A stretch of DNA of 64,000 bases. Origin: Streptomyces sp. NBC_01591 (GTDB taxonomy: Bacteria; Actinomycetota; Actinomycetes; Streptomycetales; Streptomycetaceae). The notes below the pieces were generated by a model. It was given only the letters and a program-made list of their open reading frames with translations. It did not search any database and was not told where the DNA came from. Made by a program: the position numbers and the translations under genes. Positions within the stretch are counted from its first letter, which is position 1; every line of letters starts with the position of its first letter. This document shows, one piece after another, positions 38,564 through 46,415 of the stretch. The stretch is taken from assembly GCF_035918155.1 (NCBI RefSeq), contig NZ_CP109327.1:8618001-8682000 (forward strand), read 5' to 3'.

Positions 38564-39498
38564 TCAGCTCAGGCGGTAGCCGAGGAGGGCGAGGCCCGCG
38601 GCGGCGGCGCGGTGCTGGTAGGCGCGCAGTCCGGGGGCGCCGGGGGTGCGGGTTTGCGGGCGTTGCGGTGCCAGTGACCGGTGAGTGCGGTGAGGAACGC
38701 GGTGGTGGCGTCGGGGTTGGTGGCGGTGGCGGGGTGGTCGCAAAGCAGGCGGGCGATGTCTGCGGGTGCGTGTCCGGCGAGGACGAGTTGCGGGGCGAGA
38801 GATGCGGCGTCGATGCAGGCCGGGCCGGTGGTGGCGTGTGCCCAGTCCACGAAGGTCACGCCGAGGTGGCGGTCGCGGACCATGTTGTCGGCCCGCAGGT
38901 CTCCGTGGACGATGCGGTTGCCGCGGGCAAGGGCGGGCCAGGCGGCTTCCAGTTCGGCGAGCTGGGGCAGGCGGTCACGGGCGGCGGGGGCGAGGTCTGC
39001 GGGCGGATCGCGGAGGAGTTCGTCCCAGCCGTGCAGGCCGGCCGCTGTCGAGGGTGTGGTGCTGACCGCCTTGGCGTACGGTGCCGGGGCGGGGCTGGAG
39101 GTGAGCTTGTCCAGGAGCGCCCATGTCTGCCCGGCGTCGCCTGAGGCGGGGGAGAGGTCGGGGTGCGGGCCGTCGAGGTGGGCGATGACGACGGCGGTCC
39201 AGTTGGCGGCGTGGTGGATGCCCAGCAGTTTTGGGGCCGGGGCGCCGGGAGGCAGCGCGTCCAGGACGGCGGCTTCGTGGACGTTGGCGGCGGTGAGCGG
39301 GTCGTCGTCGGGAGCTGCCTTGACGAAGGCCCGTCGCCCGTCGGCCAGACGGAGGGCGGCGGCCAGTTGGTGGCCGAAGCCGCCGCCGGGGGTGACGGTG
39401 TCGGTGACGGGTGCGCCGAGGGCGTCTTCGAGGCGGGCGCGCAGCGCCGTGGGGACGTCGGTCCATTGCAGACGGCCGCTGGTGGGCGGTACAGGCAT
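38564..39498 (-). CDS. APH-fold small-molecule kinase with C-terminal frameshift
   Basis: The product has the aminoglycoside-phosphotransferase fold: an N-lobe (TPGGGFGHQLAAALRLADGR), the catalytic loop NRIVHGDLRADNMV (about residues 195-208) and the metal site VTFVDWAHATTG. Up to ARKPAPP the frame is normal. A shift in a CCCCCGG run near 38640 then moves it out of frame. The alternative frame gives the expected family ending RAYQHRAAAAGLALLGYRLS with a stop at 38564, whereas the uncorrected frame stops at 38569. The active site is unaffected, so the protein may still work, and sequencing error is possible. The gene may belong with the biosynthetic-looking cluster at 41.3-44.9 kb, from which a transposon separates it. 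Confidence 0.75.
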
Positions 39499-39662
39499 CG
39501 GGGCAGCTTTCAGAGGTCCAGGGGACGGGTGACGGGGTGATGGGGGTGCGCGCCGAGCCGGACCGGGAGTCGGGGCTGAGGGGCGGGGTCCGCTCTCTCA
39601 GTGCTCCAGCTCGGCGCCGGGCGCTCGTCGCCGCATCACGCGCATTCGCCTGTGTCCTCTGA

Positions 39663-41163
39663 GCTTGATCTTTAAGGCTGCTGGTCGGCCCCGTCGCGTC
39701 TAGGCATTATCCGTTTTGCGCTGTTTCTTGCCGACTGGGTGGCGGGGTGCGGGTGTGGAGGTGCGGCCCTTGGGGCGGCCTGGGCCGGGGCGGGAGGCTT
39801 TTGGCGCGCGGGCTGGAGTGCCCACGGTCCGTCGGATGCGGGGATAGCCCCGTCGGACTCGGCCCGGGGTGAGCTGATCCGGTGTCAGGGGTTTCTCCCA
39901 GGGCCGCCGGAGGTCCTCGGCCAGAGGCCGGATGAGACGGAGTTGCGCGTAGGCGGCGAGGATCAGCCACACCCACCGGTCGGCCTGTTCGGGGGTGCGC
40001 AAGCGGGGTCGGGTCAGGCCGAGCGTCTGCTTGAAGAAGCGGAAAGTGTGCTCGATGTCGAACCTTCGAAGGAAGATCCGCCAGAGGCGGTCGACGTCGT
40101 GCGCGGTGGCGTCGGGGTCGCTGTGCCACAGCCATAGCGGCTTGGGGTCGCGATTGCCGGGCAGGTGCTCGACCGCCAGATGGACCAACGTTCCCTCGAC
40201 GATGGGGAGTTCGCCTTCGTGGTCAGCCCAGGAGCCGCGCCGGTCCAGCCTGGGGTGCAGGCGGCCCCAGCAGCGGGCGAGGACTTGACCGAAGCGGTCG
40301 TGGACGCCGGCCGACTCCTGGACCGGCGCGGGATAGGTCGCGGCGTGGGCCAGGCGGAACTCCGCTCCATGCCGGGGCGGGCGCCCGGGGTTCGTCCCGC
40401 GGCGCTTGCCGGCTGGGGCGCGCATCACCCGGTCGGCGCGGATGCGTCCCAGTAGCCGCACCGGCTCCTCGCGCAGCAGCCAGGTCAGACGAACCAGGTC
40501 GTAGCCGGAGTCCAGGACGAACAGCACCGGCAAGTCCCCCGGGCGCCACTGCCCGGCCCGCTCCAGGCGGGCGACAAGGTCGCGGATCTGGGCGGCGGTG
40601 ACCTCGGTGGGATCGTCCTCGGGCCCCAACCGCACCGCGTCCAGCGGCCCGGTCCACGAGGAGCGGCCCCCACCCAGGGCCGCCGCGACCTGGTAGGGCC
40701 AGCCCGGGATGGTCTGACGCACCCCGTCGCACCGGCACGGACGGTGGCAGTGCAGCCGCTCGGGCGAGCACTCGGCATCCGGACGCGGCCACGGCGTGAC
40801 ATCCAACGCGATCGACAGCTGCCCGTCCGTCCCGCGCGGCAGCCGCAGACCGGCCAGCGCCATCCGAAGCCGGGACACGTTGATGTGTCCCTGGGTCAGC
40901 GCGTCGTACATCGCTCCGTGCCCGCGCCGATGCACCCCCGACAGCGAGAGTTCCGGCAGGGACGTCACCGGCCCGTCTGCGCACAGCACCGCATCCATGA
41001 GCTCGAACAGAGCATCCGCCCGCAACGTCAGGCACTCGTACAGCTCACGGCGAAACCGGGACAACCTGGCCAGGGCCTCGACGCGCACGGCGCCGTCTTG
41101 CAGACTGTCCATCACGGCCTTTGGTTGATCAACGTGTCTCTTGGCGGAAACATATGATCAAGC
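39663..41163 (-). mobile_element. DDE transposon between the kinase gene and the hydroxylase cluster
   Basis: Short terminal inverted repeats GCTTGATC lie at 39663-39670 and, reversed, at 41156-41163. With one mismatch or gap they extend to CCTCTG on both sides. The element contains one transposase gene and little else. It lies exactly between two minus-strand genes that could once have been adjacent. Confidence 0.6.
39700..41115 (-). CDS. DDE transposase (IS4-like fold, Streptomyces NF041680-like type)
   Basis: The 471-residue protein has Asp in LSIALDVTPWPRPDAE (about residue 108), Asp in VLFVLDSGYDLVRL (about 210) and Glu in RRFDIEHTFRFFKQTLGL (about 372), the DDE layout of IS4-like enzymes, with a basic C-terminal tail (GRPKGRTSTPAPRHPVGKKQ). 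The N-terminal 70 residues are helical and probably bind the ends. The gene is complete and the enzyme is probably active. Confidence 0.82.
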   Translation of the reverse strand: MMDSLQDGAVRVEALARLSRFRRELYECLTLRADALFELMDAVLCADGPVTSLPELSLSGVHRRGHGAMYDALTQGHINVSRLRMALAGLRLPRGTDGQLSIALDVTPWPRPDAECSPERLHCHRPCRCDGVRQTIPGWPYQVAAALGGGRSSWTGPLDAVRLGPEDDPTEVTAAQIRDLVARLERAGQWRPGDLPVLFVLDSGYDLVRLTWLLREEPVRLLGRIRADRVMRAPAGKRRGTNPGRPPRHGAEFRLAHAATYPAPVQESAGVHDRFGQVLARCWGRLHPRLDRRGSWADHEGELPIVEGTLVHLAVEHLPGNRDPKPLWLWHSDPDATAHDVDRLWRIFLRRFDIEHTFRFFKQTLGLTRPRLRTPEQADRWVWLILAAYAQLRLIRPLAEDLRRPWEKPLTPDQLTPGRVRRGYPRIRRTVGTPARAPKASRPGPGRPKGRTSTPAPRHPVGKKQRKTDNA

Positions 41164-41192
41164 AGAGGCCGCTCAGCTGTCAGGCGAACGAC

Positions 41193-41225
41193 AAACCCCA
41201 CCAAGAAATGATCTTGGTGGGGTTT
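41193..41225. terminator. Perfect 13-bp hairpin
   Basis: AAACCCCACCAAG is followed after 7 bases by CTTGGTGGGGTTT. The stem is flanked by A and T runs, so it could stop transcription from either side. It lies just outside the transposon. Confidence 0.7.
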
Positions 41226-41253
41226 AAAGCCAAGCTGAGTGCAGAAGTGCAAT

Positions 41254-41279
41254 AAGGGGCGCCCGTGGGGGCGCCCCTT
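41254..41279 (-). terminator. Terminator of the hydroxylase-HAD operon
   Basis: AAGGGGCGCCC and GGGCGCCCCTT form an 11-bp stem with a 4-base loop, 20 bp after the HAD stop codon on the minus strand. It marks the operon's natural end. Confidence 0.75.
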
Positions 41280-41300: not shown

Positions 41301-41960
41301 TCACGCGCTGTCGGTTGGGGGCAGGTGGTTGAGCAGGGACGGCCCGATGCTGGCGGGTTCGGGCAGGAGGTGATCGGCCCCGGCGGCGTGCAGGGCGGCG
41401 GGAGGGTGCCAGCCCCAGACCGCTCCGAGTGCGACGACGCCGGCGGCGCGGGCCGCGGTCATGTCGGTGGGGCTGTCCCCTACGAACACCGCGCGTTCCG
41501 GTGGGATGTCGAGCCGGCTCAGGGCGAGATGCAGTCCGTCGGGAGCCGGTTTGGGCGGCGCGTCCTGCCGTGTGACGACGACCTCCAGCAGTTTGGTCAG
41601 GGCTGGTGGCAGCAGCCACCGCAGCCGGTCGGGGTCCTGGACCGTGACGACGCCGACGGCCGTGCCCTGCGCGCGCAGGGCCAGCAGCCCGGCGAGAATC
41701 CCGGGGAACGGTTCGACGGGGAGGGTTGACGCCGCGCCGTCCCACCACCGGTCGCAGGCGTCGTCGGGATCGGCGACGTCCAGGAGTGCCAGGACCTCGC
41801 AGCGGGGGCGGCGCAGGGCAGCAGGCGGAAGGTCATCCGGCATCACCCGGCGGCCGAGAGCACAGGTGGCGACCGCCGCGAGGGTGGAGCGCACTGCGGC
41901 GGCACTGTCCAGCAGCACTCCGTCCAGGTCGAACAGCGCCGCTTGGCGGGGCCCGGTCAC
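41301..41960 (-). CDS. HAD-superfamily phosphatase
   Basis: GTG 41960 overlaps the phosphoribosyltransferase stop as GTGA and gives 219 residues. HAD motif I is AALFDLDGVLLDS, motif II sits in GVVTVQDPDRL (an unusual Val/Gln surround), motif III is PPKPAPDGLHLAL and motif IV VFVGDSPTDMTAARAAG. It should remove a phosphate, perhaps from the nucleotide product of the preceding enzymes. It is the last gene of the five-gene unit. Confidence 0.88.
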   Translation of the reverse strand: MTGPRQAALFDLDGVLLDSAAAVRSTLAAVATCALGRRVMPDDLPPAALRRPRCEVLALLDVADPDDACDRWWDGAASTLPVEPFPGILAGLLALRAQGTAVGVVTVQDPDRLRWLLPPALTKLLEVVVTRQDAPPKPAPDGLHLALSRLDIPPERAVFVGDSPTDMTAARAAGVVALGAVWGWHPPAALHAAGADHLLPEPASIGPSLLNHLPPTDSA

Positions 41961-42481
41961 CGGGCACCGTCCGGATCTTGGACCAGGGCGCGCAGGACGA
42001 TGTGGTGGTCGGCGAGCAGGGTGGCGGCGCCCGCGTCGCGGTCCAGGACGCACAGGGCCGTGCCGACCCGCGCGCCGCCCATCCGCAGCAGGCGGGCACT
42101 GCGCAGGAGACTTGTGCCGCTGCGGGCGGTGTCGTCCAGCAGGACCGTTTGCCGGCCGCTCAGCTCGGCGCCCTCGATCTGCTGCCACGTGCCGTGTTCC
42201 TTGGGAGAGGGGCGAAGGAAGGCGGCGGGCAGACCGGTGTGCAGGGACACCGCCGTGACCAGCGGGATGCCGGCCAGCGCGGGACCCGCCAGGACCTCGG
42301 TGCCAGCGGGCAGCAGGCTGGCGAGCGCGGCTGCGGTCTCCGCCAGCAGCTCCGGGTCACCGGCCAGCCGGTACGGGTCGAAGTAGGTGTCCAGGGTGCC
42401 GCCTTCCGGCAGCCGGTAGGGGCCGGGCCGGTAGGCGACGCCCGCGATCTTCTCCGCGAAGGTGACGGCGGGCAACGTCAT
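41957..42481 (-). CDS. Orotate-phosphoribosyltransferase-like enzyme
   Basis: The 174-residue type-I PRTase has a flexible-loop region (FLRPSPKEHGTWQQIEG) and a PRPP-binding motif VLLDDTARSGTSLL (about residues 120-133). The usual DDVxTTGxS reads DDTARSGTS, so the acidic pair and the phosphate loop survive. It transfers ribose-5-phosphate between PRPP and a nitrogen base. The start overlaps the LOG-like stop as ATGA. As a second, cluster-bound PRTase it is unlikely to be the housekeeping PyrE. Confidence 0.82.
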   Translation of the reverse strand: MTLPAVTFAEKIAGVAYRPGPYRLPEGGTLDTYFDPYRLAGDPELLAETAAALASLLPAGTEVLAGPALAGIPLVTAVSLHTGLPAAFLRPSPKEHGTWQQIEGAELSGRQTVLLDDTARSGTSLLRSARLLRMGGARVGTALCVLDRDAGAATLLADHHIVLRALVQDPDGAR

Positions 42482-43032
42482 CGCTTGCACCGCCCGGCAT
42501 CGAGGGCCTTGAGATCCGCTTCGAGCGCCGCGGCGTCGGGCAGTTCCCGCAGGAAGCCCAGCGGCCGGATGGGGCTCTCGGTCAGCCATCCCCCGGCCCG
42601 CAGGAACGCACCCAGACGGCACGCGGTGGGCCCGAGCAGCCGCACGGGAAGGGAACGGATCGTGGTGGCGTAGTACAGGGCGGCGGTGAGTTCGTGCAGC
42701 GTGCCGACCCCTCCGCCCATCGCGACGACCAGGTCGGCGTCGTCGAGATAGGCATGCAGCCGGGCGCCGATGGTCGGGGCGTACACGGTGGCGGTGACGT
42801 GGGGGTTGAGCGCTCCCCAGTCGGGGCGGCCGGCCAGCGTGATCGCGGTGACCGGTACTCCGTGGGGTGCGGCGCCGCGCGCGGCGGCCTCCATCAGTCC
42901 GTTGTAGCCGCCGTGCCGCAGGGCGTACCCGGCGCGGGCCAGTGCGGCGCCGGCAGCCTCCGCCAGCGGTTCCTCGCCGTCCGGCGGTACGACTCCGGCG
43001 AACAGGGCCGCGGTGAGGTCGGTGCTGTTCAT
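42478..43032 (-). CDS. LOG-like nucleotide phosphoribohydrolase
   Basis: The 184-residue Rossmann protein has the two motifs of the LOG/TIGR00725 group: RHGGYNGLMEAAARGA (about residues 38-53) and VAMGGGVGTLHELTAALYYA (about 103-122), variants of GGGxxGLM and PGGxGTxxE. LOG enzymes release a base from a nucleoside 5-prime-monophosphate. Paired with a PRTase, it may exchange bases. It is coupled by ATGA overlaps to genes on both sides. Confidence 0.8.
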   Translation of the reverse strand: MNSTDLTAALFAGVVPPDGEEPLAEAAGAALARAGYALRHGGYNGLMEAAARGAAPHGVPVTAITLAGRPDWGALNPHVTATVYAPTIGARLHAYLDDADLVVAMGGGVGTLHELTAALYYATTIRSLPVRLLGPTACRLGAFLRAGGWLTESPIRPLGFLRELPDAAALEADLKALDAGRCKR

Positions 43033-43943
43033 ACGAGTCCTTCCTCGTGCTGCTGGTAGGAGCGGTATGCGGAGATCTCGTCGGTCAGCGAGCCGGCGGC
43101 GTGCGGGGCGATCCGCTGCGCAAGGCGCACGATGCGGTCCAGTGCTTCATCGGCCTGCGCCACGGTGGGGACCGGCGGACTGGTCAGCGCCTGCGTCAGC
43201 TGGGCCAGACACTCCCGGCCGGTGGCGGTGCGGCCGACTTCGTCGGGCAGGTGGTACCAGCCGTGATGCCGGGAGTGCGGCACCAGCGCGGTGCGGATCA
43301 CGTCCCGGCAGGTGGCGTTCAGGTCGTGCAGGAGGCCGTAGGCGATGTAGTGCTGGCCCCTGGCCAGGCGTTTGCGGAGCATCGCGTGCAGGACCATCGC
43401 CTGGACGAGGAGACTGCCGCAGTCCGCGGGTGCCTGTGCCGCGCGGGCGAGTTCCTGCGCCGTGCGCTGCCGGGTGCCGGCATCGGCGAGGCTGTCGGCG
43501 CCGGGGCCCTGCCACAGCAGGCGGGGGCCGATCCTGCGGCGCAGCGCCCCGACCGTGCTGGTCGGGCACAGGTACAGGTCGAGCTGGAGCAGGTGGCCGT
43601 CGTGCGGCAGCAGGTAGACGAACCCGGCGCCGCCGAGATCGCCGACGATGGTGTCCCGCCATCCGGGCAGCAGCGTGCCGAAGGTGGTGGACATCAGCGC
43701 GTCCAGGCTGTTCATCAGGTCGGGCAGTCGGCTGTCGTGGACGGCGACGACCAGGTCGACGTCGGAGAGCCGGTCCGCGGTGCCGGTGGCCAGCGAGCCG
43801 CGGACCAGGAGGTGGGTCACGGCCGTGGTGGCGGACAGGGCCTGGACCAGGTCGCCCAGGACGGCGAGTTGCGCCGGCCGGTGGGCGTGCGCGAGTTCCT
43901 CGATCGCGGGCAGCTCGCGCGGCGGGGATGCCGAGGTGGACAT
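43029..43943 (-). CDS. Nucleotidyltransferase-fold protein
   Basis: ATG 43943, preceded by AGGACA, gives 304 residues. A polymerase-beta-like NTase site is visible: LLVRGSLATGTADRLSDVDL, VV (about residues 49-70, GS followed by DxD). The third Asp is probably in LLQLDLYLCPT. The C-terminal half is helical, like the aminoglycoside adenylyltransferase/HEPN-type partner domain. It could transfer AMP onto a small molecule. Nothing here looks like a paired toxin gene. Confidence 0.78.
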   Translation of the reverse strand: MSTSASPPRELPAIEELAHAHRPAQLAVLGDLVQALSATTAVTHLLVRGSLATGTADRLSDVDLVVAVHDSRLPDLMNSLDALMSTTFGTLLPGWRDTIVGDLGGAGFVYLLPHDGHLLQLDLYLCPTSTVGALRRRIGPRLLWQGPGADSLADAGTRQRTAQELARAAQAPADCGSLLVQAMVLHAMLRKRLARGQHYIAYGLLHDLNATCRDVIRTALVPHSRHHGWYHLPDEVGRTATGRECLAQLTQALTSPPVPTVAQADEALDRIVRLAQRIAPHAAGSLTDEISAYRSYQQHEEGLV

Positions 43944-43983
43944 CAGTGTCCTGCCTTTCGGATGAAGAGGATCGGGGCTGGGG

Positions 43984-44853
43984 TCAGGGGCGGTCGAGCA
44001 GGTGCGCCTTCGCCTGGCGCCACCGGTGCGCATCGCTGTCCGCGCCGCGGCCCGTGTGGAGTTCGGCGATCAGGTCGTAGGCCCCGCCCTCCGGCAGGGC
44101 GTAGCTGTAGAAAGCGCGCAGCAGGGTCTGTTCCGCCGCGTCGGTGAAGCCGAGTTCGGCAAGCTGCCCGGCCCCGGACAGCAGTGCGGCCCGGTTCGCC
44201 CCGGTCATCTCCGGCAGGTCCGCCGCGTCCCCGTCACGCAGGCAGGGGCGGGCGGCCAGGGCCTGGTAGGCGTCGTTGGCGTACACGTCGGCGATCAGGT
44301 GGAGCCGGTCCGGGCCGGTCGTGTTGCATACGCCGTGTGCCTGCGAGGGCGTCAGCCGCCACAATGCGCCGGCTGCCATGTGGACCCTGGTCCCTGCGGT
44401 GACCAGAACTGCCGAAGGATTGGTGACGAGCGGGATGTGCAGACGGTGCCTGCCCATGTCTCGCAGTTCCGCGTAGTCGCGGTGCTCCCACAGGTAGGAG
44501 TGCGGTTCCAGGCGGGCCAGGCGCACGTACATGAAGTCCAGTCCCAGCCCGTCGAGGAACCGCGTGGTGGCGGGCATGGCCTCCAGTAAGGAGGTGGGCC
44601 GGGGGCGGCCGTCGCCGATCACGACGTCGTGGGGGTCACCGGAGTGGTTCAGCAGCGACGTGGTCCACCAGCCGCCCGACTGGTACTCGCCGTACGCGAC
44701 GACGCCGCGGGCGGGCGCTGCCAGCGCCTCGGCCCGCATCTGCTCGACCGTCAGCTCGTCCAGGTCGGCCAGCCGGGCGACCTGGGCAAGGACGTCCGCC
44801 CGCCCGGGGCCGGCCTGCGCCACCGGGGTGGCTGCGGGGAGTATGGTCACCAT
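43984..44853 (-). CDS. Aspartyl/asparaginyl beta-hydroxylase-like dioxygenase
   Basis: The 289-residue protein carries the 2-oxoglutarate/Fe(II) motif of the Asp/Asn beta-hydroxylase family: LEPHSYLWEHRDYAELRD with HxD (about residues 121-125), RHRLHIPLVTNPSAVLV, then the distal His in LTPSQAHGVCNTTGPDRLHL with the oxoglutarate-binding Arg. It is the first gene of the minus-strand unit and divergent from the TPR regulator. The amino-acid-like substrate is unknown; free Asp/Asn or a peptide carrier are possibilities. Confidence 0.83.
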   Translation of the reverse strand: MVTILPAATPVAQAGPGRADVLAQVARLADLDELTVEQMRAEALAAPARGVVAYGEYQSGGWWTTSLLNHSGDPHDVVIGDGRPRPTSLLEAMPATTRFLDGLGLDFMYVRLARLEPHSYLWEHRDYAELRDMGRHRLHIPLVTNPSAVLVTAGTRVHMAAGALWRLTPSQAHGVCNTTGPDRLHLIADVYANDAYQALAARPCLRDGDAADLPEMTGANRAALLSGAGQLAELGFTDAAEQTLLRAFYSYALPEGGAYDLIAELHTGRGADSDAHRWRQAKAHLLDRP

Positions 44854-45041
44854 CGGAATCCTCCTGACATCTTGTCGGACGCTGCCCTGCAGGGCAGCCG
44901 TGCAAGGACACCGCAGGCACGAACCGCCTCACAGACCGCTGGCGTTGCCGCCCGTTGCAGGCCGTTGCCGTTCACCTCCGGCGGCCTTCCCCCGCCCGCC
45001 GGAAGCCGGGAAACTGGTGGCGCCCGCGCCCGCGAAAAGGG

Positions 45042-46415
45042 ATGGCCGTGACCACTGACGCCGCCGAACGCCACCCGCTTGCCTACCTCCTGGCCGTACG
45101 CGGCCAGAAGGCGCAGGCGTACCTGCTCCGGGTCGCCGAGCAGCACCAGCGCATGGGATACGGGCAGATGGCGTACCGCCGGGAGAAGGCATCCCGCTGG
45201 ATCAGGGGGGACTACGCGCCCAACTACCGCACCCAGCTCGCCATGGCCGCGCTCGAAGGCATCCCGCCCGAGGCGATCCACGCCCACGGCTGGCCGGGCT
45301 GGCTCCTGTTGGCCCTGCCGGACCACACCCTCTTCACCCTCCCGTGGACGACCACGGGGGTGGTGCAGGCACTGGAGATCACAGGAGGTCCGGTGGACCG
45401 CAGGAAGTTTCTGATCACCACATCCGTCACCCTGGGCACCACCGTGGCGCAATGGTCCGCCGCCGCCCCCGCAGGAGCGGCCCCCACCACGGGCTGCCGG
45501 ATCGGTGACGACGTCCCCGACCTCTTCGAACGCCGCCTTGAGGGCCTGCGCCGGCTCGACGACACCGTCGGCTCCGGCGACGTCTACGACGCGGCCCGCG
45601 CCGAACTCCGCCTGATCACCGCCACCCTCAAGAACGCCTCCTTCGGCGAAGGCGTCGAGCGCCGCCTGTTCGCCGCGGCGGCCGAAGCCTCCCGCTCCGC
45701 GGGCTGGACGGCCTACGACAGCGGGAAGACCGCCGCCGCCGAACGCCACTACGTCACCGCCCTGCGCGCCGCCGCCAGCGCCGACGACCCCGTGGTCGGA
45801 GCGAACACTCTCGCCTTCTGGGCCATCCAGCACTACTCCACCGGCAATCCCCGCGGCGCGGTCGACCTCATCGAGGCCGCCCTGTCAAAAGCACCAAGGA
45901 CCGGCTCGCCCCGCCTGACCTCCATGCTCCACGCCCGCGCCTGCCGGGCCCACGCCCATGCCGGCGATGCCCGGGCCGCCGACCGGGCCGCCAACGCCGC
46001 CCTGGACGCCTACGAGCACGCCGGACCCATCGAGGACGATCTCTCCTGCGTCTACTGGTACAACCTCGGCGAGACCCACCAGCTCATCGGCAGCTCCGCC
46101 CTCAACCTGGGCAACCCCAAACGGGCCCTCGCCCACTTCCTGGAAGCCTCCACCGTCCACACCAACCAGGAGGCATACAACGGCGACGCCTTCCCCCGCG
46201 GCCACGCCATCTACCTCGCCCGGCTCGCCGAGGCCCATCTCGGTCTCGGCGATGTCGATGCCGCCGTGGCCACCGCCCACGACGCCGTCGACCGGATGGG
46301 AGGCATCACCTCCGCCCGCAGCACCCACACCCTGGAAGACCTGCGCAGCAAACTCGCCCGCCGCCGCGGGATACCCGCCGTCGCCGAATTCCTGGACTAC
46401 ACCAACACCGAGTGA
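45042..46415 (+). CDS. XRE-type regulator with TPR domain
   Basis: ATG 45042 behind AAAAGG gives 457 residues. The N-terminal 75 residues (HPLAYLLAVRGQKAQAYLLR; GQMAYRREKASRWIRGDYAP) form a helix-turn-helix. A short hydrophobic segment (RRKFLITTSVTLGTTVAQWS) follows and could be mistaken for a Tat signal. The rest is tandem TPR-like helices rich in Ala. Regulators of this layout are abundant in Streptomyces and usually control adjacent biosynthetic genes. It is divergent from the hydroxylase operon across 188 bp, its most probable target. Confidence 0.85.
   Translation: MAVTTDAAERHPLAYLLAVRGQKAQAYLLRVAEQHQRMGYGQMAYRREKASRWIRGDYAPNYRTQLAMAALEGIPPEAIHAHGWPGWLLLALPDHTLFTLPWTTTGVVQALEITGGPVDRRKFLITTSVTLGTTVAQWSAAAPAGAAPTTGCRIGDDVPDLFERRLEGLRRLDDTVGSGDVYDAARAELRLITATLKNASFGEGVERRLFAAAAEASRSAGWTAYDSGKTAAAERHYVTALRAAASADDPVVGANTLAFWAIQHYSTGNPRGAVDLIEAALSKAPRTGSPRLTSMLHARACRAHAHAGDARAADRAANAALDAYEHAGPIEDDLSCVYWYNLGETHQLIGSSALNLGNPKRALAHFLEASTVHTNQEAYNGDAFPRGHAIYLARLAEAHLGLGDVDAAVATAHDAVDRMGGITSARSTHTLEDLRSKLARRRGIPAVAEFLDYTNTE

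Follow-up and report, generated by a model that had tools for sequence, protein, structure and literature searches.

A conserved actinobacterial gene cluster beside a spare alanyl-tRNA synthetase or a kinase: a predicted source of a nucleotide-type antibiotic

What does a compact five-gene operon of Streptomyces sp. NBC_01591 produce, and what in its surroundings points to the answer? The operon and a divergent regulator lie between positions 41301 and 46415 of a 64,000-nucleotide stretch (contig NZ_CP109327.1 of assembly GCF_035918155.1, positions 8,618,001 to 8,682,000 of the forward strand), called the window here, and a preliminary description of this stretch had placed all six genes correctly. 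It overlooked the regulator's family, a repeat array, an insertion sequence (IS) and a slot beside the cluster that in relatives holds either a second alanyl-tRNA synthetase (AlaRS) or a kinase. The gene in this slot is the one that points to function. Because the same enzyme genes usually adjoin a spare AlaRS or a kinase in relatives, AlaRS is the predicted target, and on balance we lean toward a model where the cluster makes a small nucleotide-type antibiotic that inhibits AlaRS and the neighboring gene protects the producer.

The five genes lie on the minus strand in the order AspH (a beta-hydroxylase, 44853-43984), NT (a nucleotidyltransferase, 43943-43029), LOG (43032-42478), PRTase (a phosphoribosyltransferase, 42481-41957) and HAD (a phosphatase, 41960-41301). 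AspH and NT are separated by 40 bp, and NT and LOG, LOG and PRTase, and PRTase and HAD each overlap by 4 bp. These overlaps, already described, recur in the orthologue set at 40 of 46, 40 of 45 and 32 of 43 junctions, respectively. An alignment of 15 NT sequences retrieved 42 loci in named genomes, in which genes were counted by tblastn within fixed distance windows, the degenerate loci L058, L063 and L083 included. Beside NT, AspH was found in all 42 loci, LOG in 40, PRTase in 39 and HAD in 36; the complete, contiguous set of five is present in 36. The hosts are Streptomyces, Kitasatospora, Actinacidiphila, Nocardia, Kibdelosporangium, Actinoplanes, Winogradskya, Micromonospora, Planobispora, Acrocarpospora and a metagenome-assembled genome of the Micromonosporaceae. 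The cluster is a real unit with conserved gene order, and the contiguity of its genes in so many independently found loci argues for a dedicated pathway; the neighborhood survey that the preliminary description proposed thus found the genes together. Two loci, L084 (AspH-NT-kinase) and L087 (AspH-NT), were considered as minimal versions of the cluster; the other genes are absent, the neighbors are unrelated, and both look like remnants.

The slot downstream of HAD divides these 42 loci. It holds an AlaRS in 33 (28 on the same strand, five on the opposite one), a kinase in five and neither in four; one of the five kinase loci is L084, in which a 41% relative stands beside the reduced cluster. 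No mapped locus has both genes, and the window is of the kinase type. Trees of the AlaRS and of the enzymes were built with FastTree and rooted at the midpoint. In the AlaRS tree (58 sequences, four of them cluster copies entered twice), the cluster copies fall into two separate groups: group I unites Streptomyces, Kitasatospora and Micromonosporaceae with a support of 1.0, and group II joins Nocardia with Kibdelosporangium and is nested among other AlaRS. In the concatenated enzyme tree of 45 loci, ten kinase-type loci and L050, which has neither gene, form one clade with a support of 1.0 beside the AlaRS-type groups; here the Nocardia group branches as the sister of Micromonosporaceae. Read together, the two trees indicate that the enzymes stay and the neighboring gene changes.

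The cluster AlaRS are full length and, when aligned to the E. coli enzyme, all 32 sequences keep the Asn of the IWN motif, the Asp of VDTG and four residues of the editing site. Positions 42 and 242 (NBC_01267 numbering) are altered in both cluster clades, but at 42 the E. coli enzyme carries the clade-I residue too, and this position on its own may be unimportant. All 14 AlaRS-type genomes examined retain a further AlaRS; among seven genomes of the kinase lineage, AlaRS was found in six and not in one. A scan of seven loci with Rfam at the gathering threshold found no riboswitch or T-box upstream of AlaRS within the cluster, the sole matches being three tRNAs in L075, outside it.

The slot genes were also surveyed among 295 Streptomyces genomes. 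Clade-I AlaRS (above 1400 bits, with the next match at 895) occur in five genomes, four of which have the cluster; in the fifth, G156, no cluster gene is present in the contig's 624 bp upstream. Close kinases (at least 80% identity, near full length) occur in six: two with the cluster (G000, the window's own genome, and G019), two beside remnants (G158 and G271) and two with no cluster genes on a common 13-kb stretch (G107 and G110), while G245 has an 82% kinase fragment. NT itself was found in six genomes, four with an adjoining clade-I AlaRS and two with a close kinase, with no overlap. NT is absent from five of the 11 genomes with candidate protection genes, and a protection gene is absent from none of the six NT genomes; small as these numbers are, such an asymmetry would be expected for resistance determinants.

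Could the operon instead serve ordinary nucleotide salvage, with AlaRS as a hitch-hiker? Relatives of LOG, of HAD and of orotate phosphoribosyltransferase (OPRT), which PRTase resembles, have housekeeping roles, but the rarity of NT and hence of the cluster, its location in some genomes on plasmids or close to the ends of chromosomes, and the descent of the cluster AlaRS from two clades make this explanation scarcely credible. Of 246 genomes searched with PRTase, 16 gave a match, eight of these at 43-45% identity and some of the others as fragments. No other cluster gene is present in the available stretches around the eight weak matches, which were rejected as cluster members; the ones inspected resemble OPRT-like genes that stand alone. 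Loci L034, L036 and L041 carry such a gene, 43-45% identical to the cluster PRTase and possibly kin of its ancestor, and the copy in L034 has an EYFDKYRF-type motif.

Where is the slot gene of the window? The cluster had been taken to end at 41301, which is too early. An APH-fold kinase at 38569-39498 (minus strand) is predicted to be a sixth structural gene conferring self-resistance, cut off from the operon by the IS. This element of about 1.6 kb (39662-41242, boundaries approximate, assigned to no strand) contains a DDE_5 transposase at 39700-41115 (minus strand), has imperfect inverted repeats visible at its ends, and is presumably of the IS701 type. DNA from L032, L042, L045 and L051 aligns on both flanks and lacks the IS; the kinase belongs to the cluster, and the IS lies outside the pathway. 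In nine relatives the kinase starts 192-216 bp past the HAD gene. The window kinase matches PF01636 with 48.7 bits (cutoff 23.2), its catalytic HxDxxxxN motif is intact as HGDLRADN, and residues 1-282 are 83% identical to the cluster-adjoining kinase of L042. The kinase structure model matches APH(4) and APH(3'), with LxmK also among the structural neighbors. Between the HAD gene and the IS, at about 41254-41279 (minus strand), lies a perfect 11-bp GC-rich hairpin; the surrounding 60 nt fold at −27.7 kcal/mol. The strong terminator described earlier is thus present as a hairpin, but it has no T-run and does not appear in a consensus terminator scan.

The same genome allows the window copy to be compared with its closest kin. 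Four copies of the 3.5-kb five-gene stretch, 100% identical, lie at the two ends of an 8.8-Mb replicon (C1) and of a 1.27-Mb replicon (C2), each 143-147 kb from its end; these copies apparently lie in terminal inverted repeats common to the chromosome and a linear plasmid, or else reflect an assembly effect. The genome also has an 83% paralogue (L032, C2:200048-203561), a fragment of 395 bp and a match of 36 bp. The paralogue cluster is complete (about C2:198900-205200), with five genes, regulator and kinase, and is free of the IS. The final ~25 residues of the window kinase are unlike those of all ten aligned relatives. The match to the paralogue kinase spans residues 1-311 in one terminal copy and residues 1-290 in the other three, of which the window's is one; in the structure model of the paralogue, residues 291-310 form a helix with a mean pLDDT (predicted local distance difference test) of 91.5.

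Several of these observations temper the case for an AlaRS-directed antibiotic as the product. With its IS and altered kinase tail, the window copy may be partly damaged, and the paralogue is free of these defects. The window has the kinase in the slot and its genome gave a single AlaRS match; the AlaRS evidence comes from relatives. Moreover, 23 other genomes of the 295 show two AlaRS matches of non-cluster kinds, and a second AlaRS alone is therefore not special. Some of these 23 may mark other AlaRS-directed pathways and others may be split genes. Two AlaRS-type genomes, those of L118 (G249) and L119 (G246), carry a third AlaRS of another clade; one of the two presumably adjoins a TsaD-like gene, judged from a motif, and inspection by eye recognized no cluster genes among the adjacent open reading frames in either genome.

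A spare AlaRS need not be a resistance gene. It might be biosynthetic, supplying Ala-tRNA or alanylating a nucleoside to give an alanyl-nucleotide, and the kinase would then be a tailoring enzyme of another product series. The extra AlaRS of the ascamycin pathway, AcmD, is reported to be the more resistant copy, and it also supplies Ala-tRNA to AcmF (PMC12945691). SbzA is a precedent that transfers isoleucine, such a role would suit the linkage between AlaRS and cluster seen in 33 of 42 loci, and LxmK, found among the structural neighbors of the kinase, is part of a lanthipeptide dehydratase complex. Yet the shared genes showed neither an AcmF-like truncated AlaRS nor any other aminoacyl-tRNA transferase, the cluster AlaRS retain their full length together with their active-site and editing residues, and two AlaRS clades and a kinase in a single slot fit protection better. 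We consider a biosynthetic role unlikely.

The enzymes themselves suggest what kind of molecule an AlaRS inhibitor from this cluster could be. Their family assignments in the preliminary description hold by Pfam, with NT falling just under the cutoff, and the catalytic roles of the conserved residues given below are known from the respective families. AspH belongs to PF05118 (Asp_Arg_Hydrox, 59.1 bits against a cutoff of 22.6), and residues H124, D126, H173 and R183, which serve in this family as metal and 2-oxoglutarate ligands, are invariant in 18 aligned sequences. At E <= 0.001 its profile retrieves from the PDB only L-proline cis-4-hydroxylase, a distant PF05118 relative (74 bits), and the 'proline oxidase' 1e5r. 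AspH is thus likely a non-haem Fe/2-oxoglutarate hydroxylase with a free amino acid as its substrate. NT is of the pol-beta type and scores 20.6 bits with PF01909 (NTP_transf_2, cutoff 21). It keeps the fold and the GS...DxD motif, with G49, S50, D61, D63 and D122 invariant in 15 sequences, and its structure model (pLDDT 86) matches LinB, ANT(4')-IIb and ANT(6)-Ib first, albeit at ~10-17% identity and low whole-chain TM-scores. LinB and ANT enzymes nucleotidylate the hydroxyl of a small molecule; they are stand-alone resistance genes, whereas NT sits inside a five-enzyme operon. NT is likely a pol-beta-fold nucleotidyltransferase with a small-molecule substrate.

The remaining three enzymes form a group concerned with nucleotides. 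LOG falls in SLOG LDcluster4 (PF18306, 46 bits against a cutoff of 26.3; PF03641, Lysine_decarbox, 38.3 bits), and its 24.5 bits with the cytokinin LOG equivalog NF058542 lie below the threshold of 300. Its profile retrieves LOG and PpnN structures, R91 and E114 are invariant in 17 sequences, and it is predicted to be a nucleotide phosphoribohydrolase. PRTase is a member of Pribosyltran whose profile has the OPRT 2wns as its best PDB match (1.6e-29); it scores 82.8 bits with the PyrE model TIGR00336, below the cutoff of 106.8, although OPRT structures rank first. K94, D116, D117 and R120 are conserved in 18 sequences, and in 17 sequences P, A or S takes the place of the Lys in the L-K-S-G motif of OPRT (L-P-E-G in the window). 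PRTase is therefore likely OPRT-like with an altered base site. The loop for phosphoribosyl pyrophosphate (PRPP) had been called unusual, but D116, D117, R120 and G122 are each at least 97% identical across 45 orthologues, which makes it a feature of the family and not a sign of decay. HAD is an HAD_2 protein of the HAD-IA phosphatases (PF13419, 74.3 bits). Its motif II had been called unusual; D11, D13, T106, K137, D162 and D166 are at least 97% identical across 43 orthologues and nothing is missing.

From these families a pathway can be proposed, of which we infer every chemical step and predict both product and target. LOG would split a nucleotide and so release its base or its ribose 5-phosphate, the OPRT-like enzyme would use PRPP to build a nucleotide on a different base, and HAD would take off a phosphate. 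AspH would hydroxylate an amino acid, and NT would link a nucleotidyl group to that hydroxyl, yielding a stable mimic of alanyl-adenylate. A second, insensitive AlaRS would protect the producer; in the window's lineage, a kinase would do so by phosphorylating the compound.

The preliminary description had guessed at a peptidyl-nucleoside-like metabolite or a modified-nucleotide signal. A dedicated pathway is supported and a peptidyl-nucleoside-like product is plausible; the signal is not supported. The SLOG fold does occur in nucleotide-signaling systems, and a restriction-endonuclease gene stands near three AlaRS-type loci, and the product of the enzymes might be a nucleotide-derived signal, or an alarmone of phage defence, in place of an antibiotic. 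NT matches PADLOC candidate families, but weakly and at the level of the fold (20.7 bits at best), and the other six of seven proteins have no PADLOC match at E <= 0.01; a known anti-phage defence system was rejected on these grounds. No effector appears among the widely shared genes, and the linkage to AlaRS would be left unexplained. A signal or alarmone is very improbable.

Known systems provide parallels for each half of the proposal of an AlaRS-directed antibiotic. Producers of albomycin, mupirocin and indolmycin carry a second, insensitive synthetase (PMC9437257), and in angustmycin biosynthesis AgmA (LOG), AgmE (PRTase) and AgmB (HAD) cooperate (PMC8599513). The same trio of LOG phosphoribohydrolase, PRTase-fold enzyme and HAD phosphatase is found here. 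AgmE has adenine phosphoribosyltransferase activity and loads adenine, whereas the PRTase here is OPRT-like; the epimerase and pyrophosphokinase of the agm cluster are not among the conserved genes, and AspH, NT and AlaRS or kinase are additional. The ascamycin (acm) cluster resembles the related loci in being a Streptomyces nucleoside-antibiotic cluster with an extra AlaRS. It differs in its sulfation, radical-SAM and sulfatase-type genes, none of which is among the seven conserved genes here, and in its truncated AcmF; AspH, LOG and the OPRT-like enzyme are conserved here instead. Pfam and NCBIfam show no sulfamate-forming families of the ascamycin/nucleocidin type among the five enzymes, the regulator, AlaRS and the kinase. 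The product is predicted to act as the Trojan-horse aminoacyl-nucleotide antibiotics agrocin 84, microcin C and albomycin do, as a stable mimic of an aminoacyl-adenylate against one synthetase. Those compounds have different targets, and no uptake moiety or peptide gene was recognized here.

The regulator (45042-46415, plus strand) indicates how the pathway may be controlled. It had been described as a divergent XRE-TPR protein. The divergence and the TPR character stand, but the protein belongs to the NsdA family (NF053720, 293.1 bits against a cutoff of 75), and for this copy Pfam gives only TPR matches below cutoff and no helix-turn-helix. NsdA and NsdB of Streptomyces belong to the same subfamily, whereas this regulator is tied to one operon; with 85.5 bits for the NsdA equivalog (cutoff 830) and 63.5 for NsdB (cutoff 700), it lies far below both. 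All ten upstream open reading frames scanned in relatives exceed the NF053720 cutoff (nine AlaRS-type, one kinase-type), and the regulator's sequence cluster is represented in 27 of 50 loci. The shared promoter of regulator and operon contains a GCAAC array at 44944-44968 (minus strand), three units in the window with 10-bp spacing and four to six in relatives. It was found in nine of nine tested kinase-type loci with an adjacent regulator, the window included and L044 left out, and in none of the 37 other loci tested. In eight relatives it lies about 104-136 bp before the AspH start codon, and two loci have an extra GCAAC pair near −175. The pattern GCAACN5GCAAC is expected 0.15 times per 64 kb under a first-order null and occurs three times in the window, twice at the array. 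The array is a predicted operator, through which the regulator would repress the operon. The NsdAsr paper reports that an NsdA protein restrains antibiotic production, and the words 'motif' and 'consensus' are absent from its text (PMC12243394). A small gene lies near the regulator in five of the 50 loci (L055, L057, L059, L062 and L074), with an ASCH domain in that of L055, the sole one scanned.

How has the cluster come to be so scattered among its hosts? Copies lie on linear plasmids of NBC_01525, NBC_01267, S. chartreusis (where NT and the regulator are split), S. dengpaensis and NBC_01102, and NT matches 11 of 72,556 plasmid records. In NBC_01267 (L043) a full plasmid-borne alaS adjoins the cluster, and three further plasmids, of NBC_01387, NBC_01014 and NBC_01766 (150-156 kb), have PRTase and NT match values identical to those of NBC_01267. 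Upstream of some AlaRS-type clusters, a survey of 50 loci, whose gene caller misses overlapping genes, found a relaxase in seven loci, MobC in six and a DUF3631 gene in five; a replication-relaxation protein is near three other AlaRS-type clusters (one member per family scanned). Some of the AlaRS-type clusters are thus probably carried by mobilizable elements. The relaxase, MobC and DUF3631 genes were seen at L030, L055, L064, L065, L066, L069, L071 and L076, and the replication-relaxation protein at L079, L081 and L082.

Mobility also bears on the idea of a resistance island, in which LOG, NT, the kinase and HAD would modify a foreign antibiotic, either a nucleotide or one directed at AlaRS, and the extra AlaRS would serve as an insensitive target. 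Kinase-type clusters on four linear plasmids, mobilization genes near some AlaRS-type clusters, and models of NT and kinase that match antibiotic-modifying enzymes first are all consistent with it. Nevertheless, a five-enzyme operon with a PRPP user and a hydroxylase exceeds the needs of drug inactivation, and the kinase is absent from AlaRS-type loci, making such an island improbable.

In the part of the open-access literature consulted, ascamycin is the only natural product met with AlaRS-linked self-resistance. That literature yielded no paper joining AlaRS, phosphoribosyltransferase, LOG family and Streptomyces, none joining beta-hydroxylase, nucleotidyltransferase, orotate phosphoribosyltransferase, HAD, nucleoside antibiotic and Streptomyces, and none pairing 'alanyl-tRNA synthetase inhibitor' with 'natural product', although the cluster may have been published earlier. 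A more specific claim combines all parts of the proposal and can be put forward only tentatively: the cluster may represent a new actinobacterial antibiotic family, whose product would be a hydroxy-amino-acid nucleotide diester mimicking alanyl-adenylate. Base exchange (LOG, the OPRT-like enzyme and HAD), hydroxylation (AspH) and nucleotidyl transfer (NT) would build this compound, and linear plasmids and mobilizable elements would carry the cluster. Its self-protection gene would have been exchanged during evolution, with duplication of the target (AlaRS, recruited twice) and phosphorylation of the drug (kinase) as the two alternatives.

What this would mean for the family is twofold. A cluster as small as seven genes, which itself labels its likely target, can be expressed in its entirety, and the prediction is directly testable. 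The alternating slot, in turn, would be a natural experiment in which producers could switch their self-protection while the pathway remained unchanged, and, should the product be a substrate of the kinase, the kinase would mark a hydroxyl that the compound needs for its activity.

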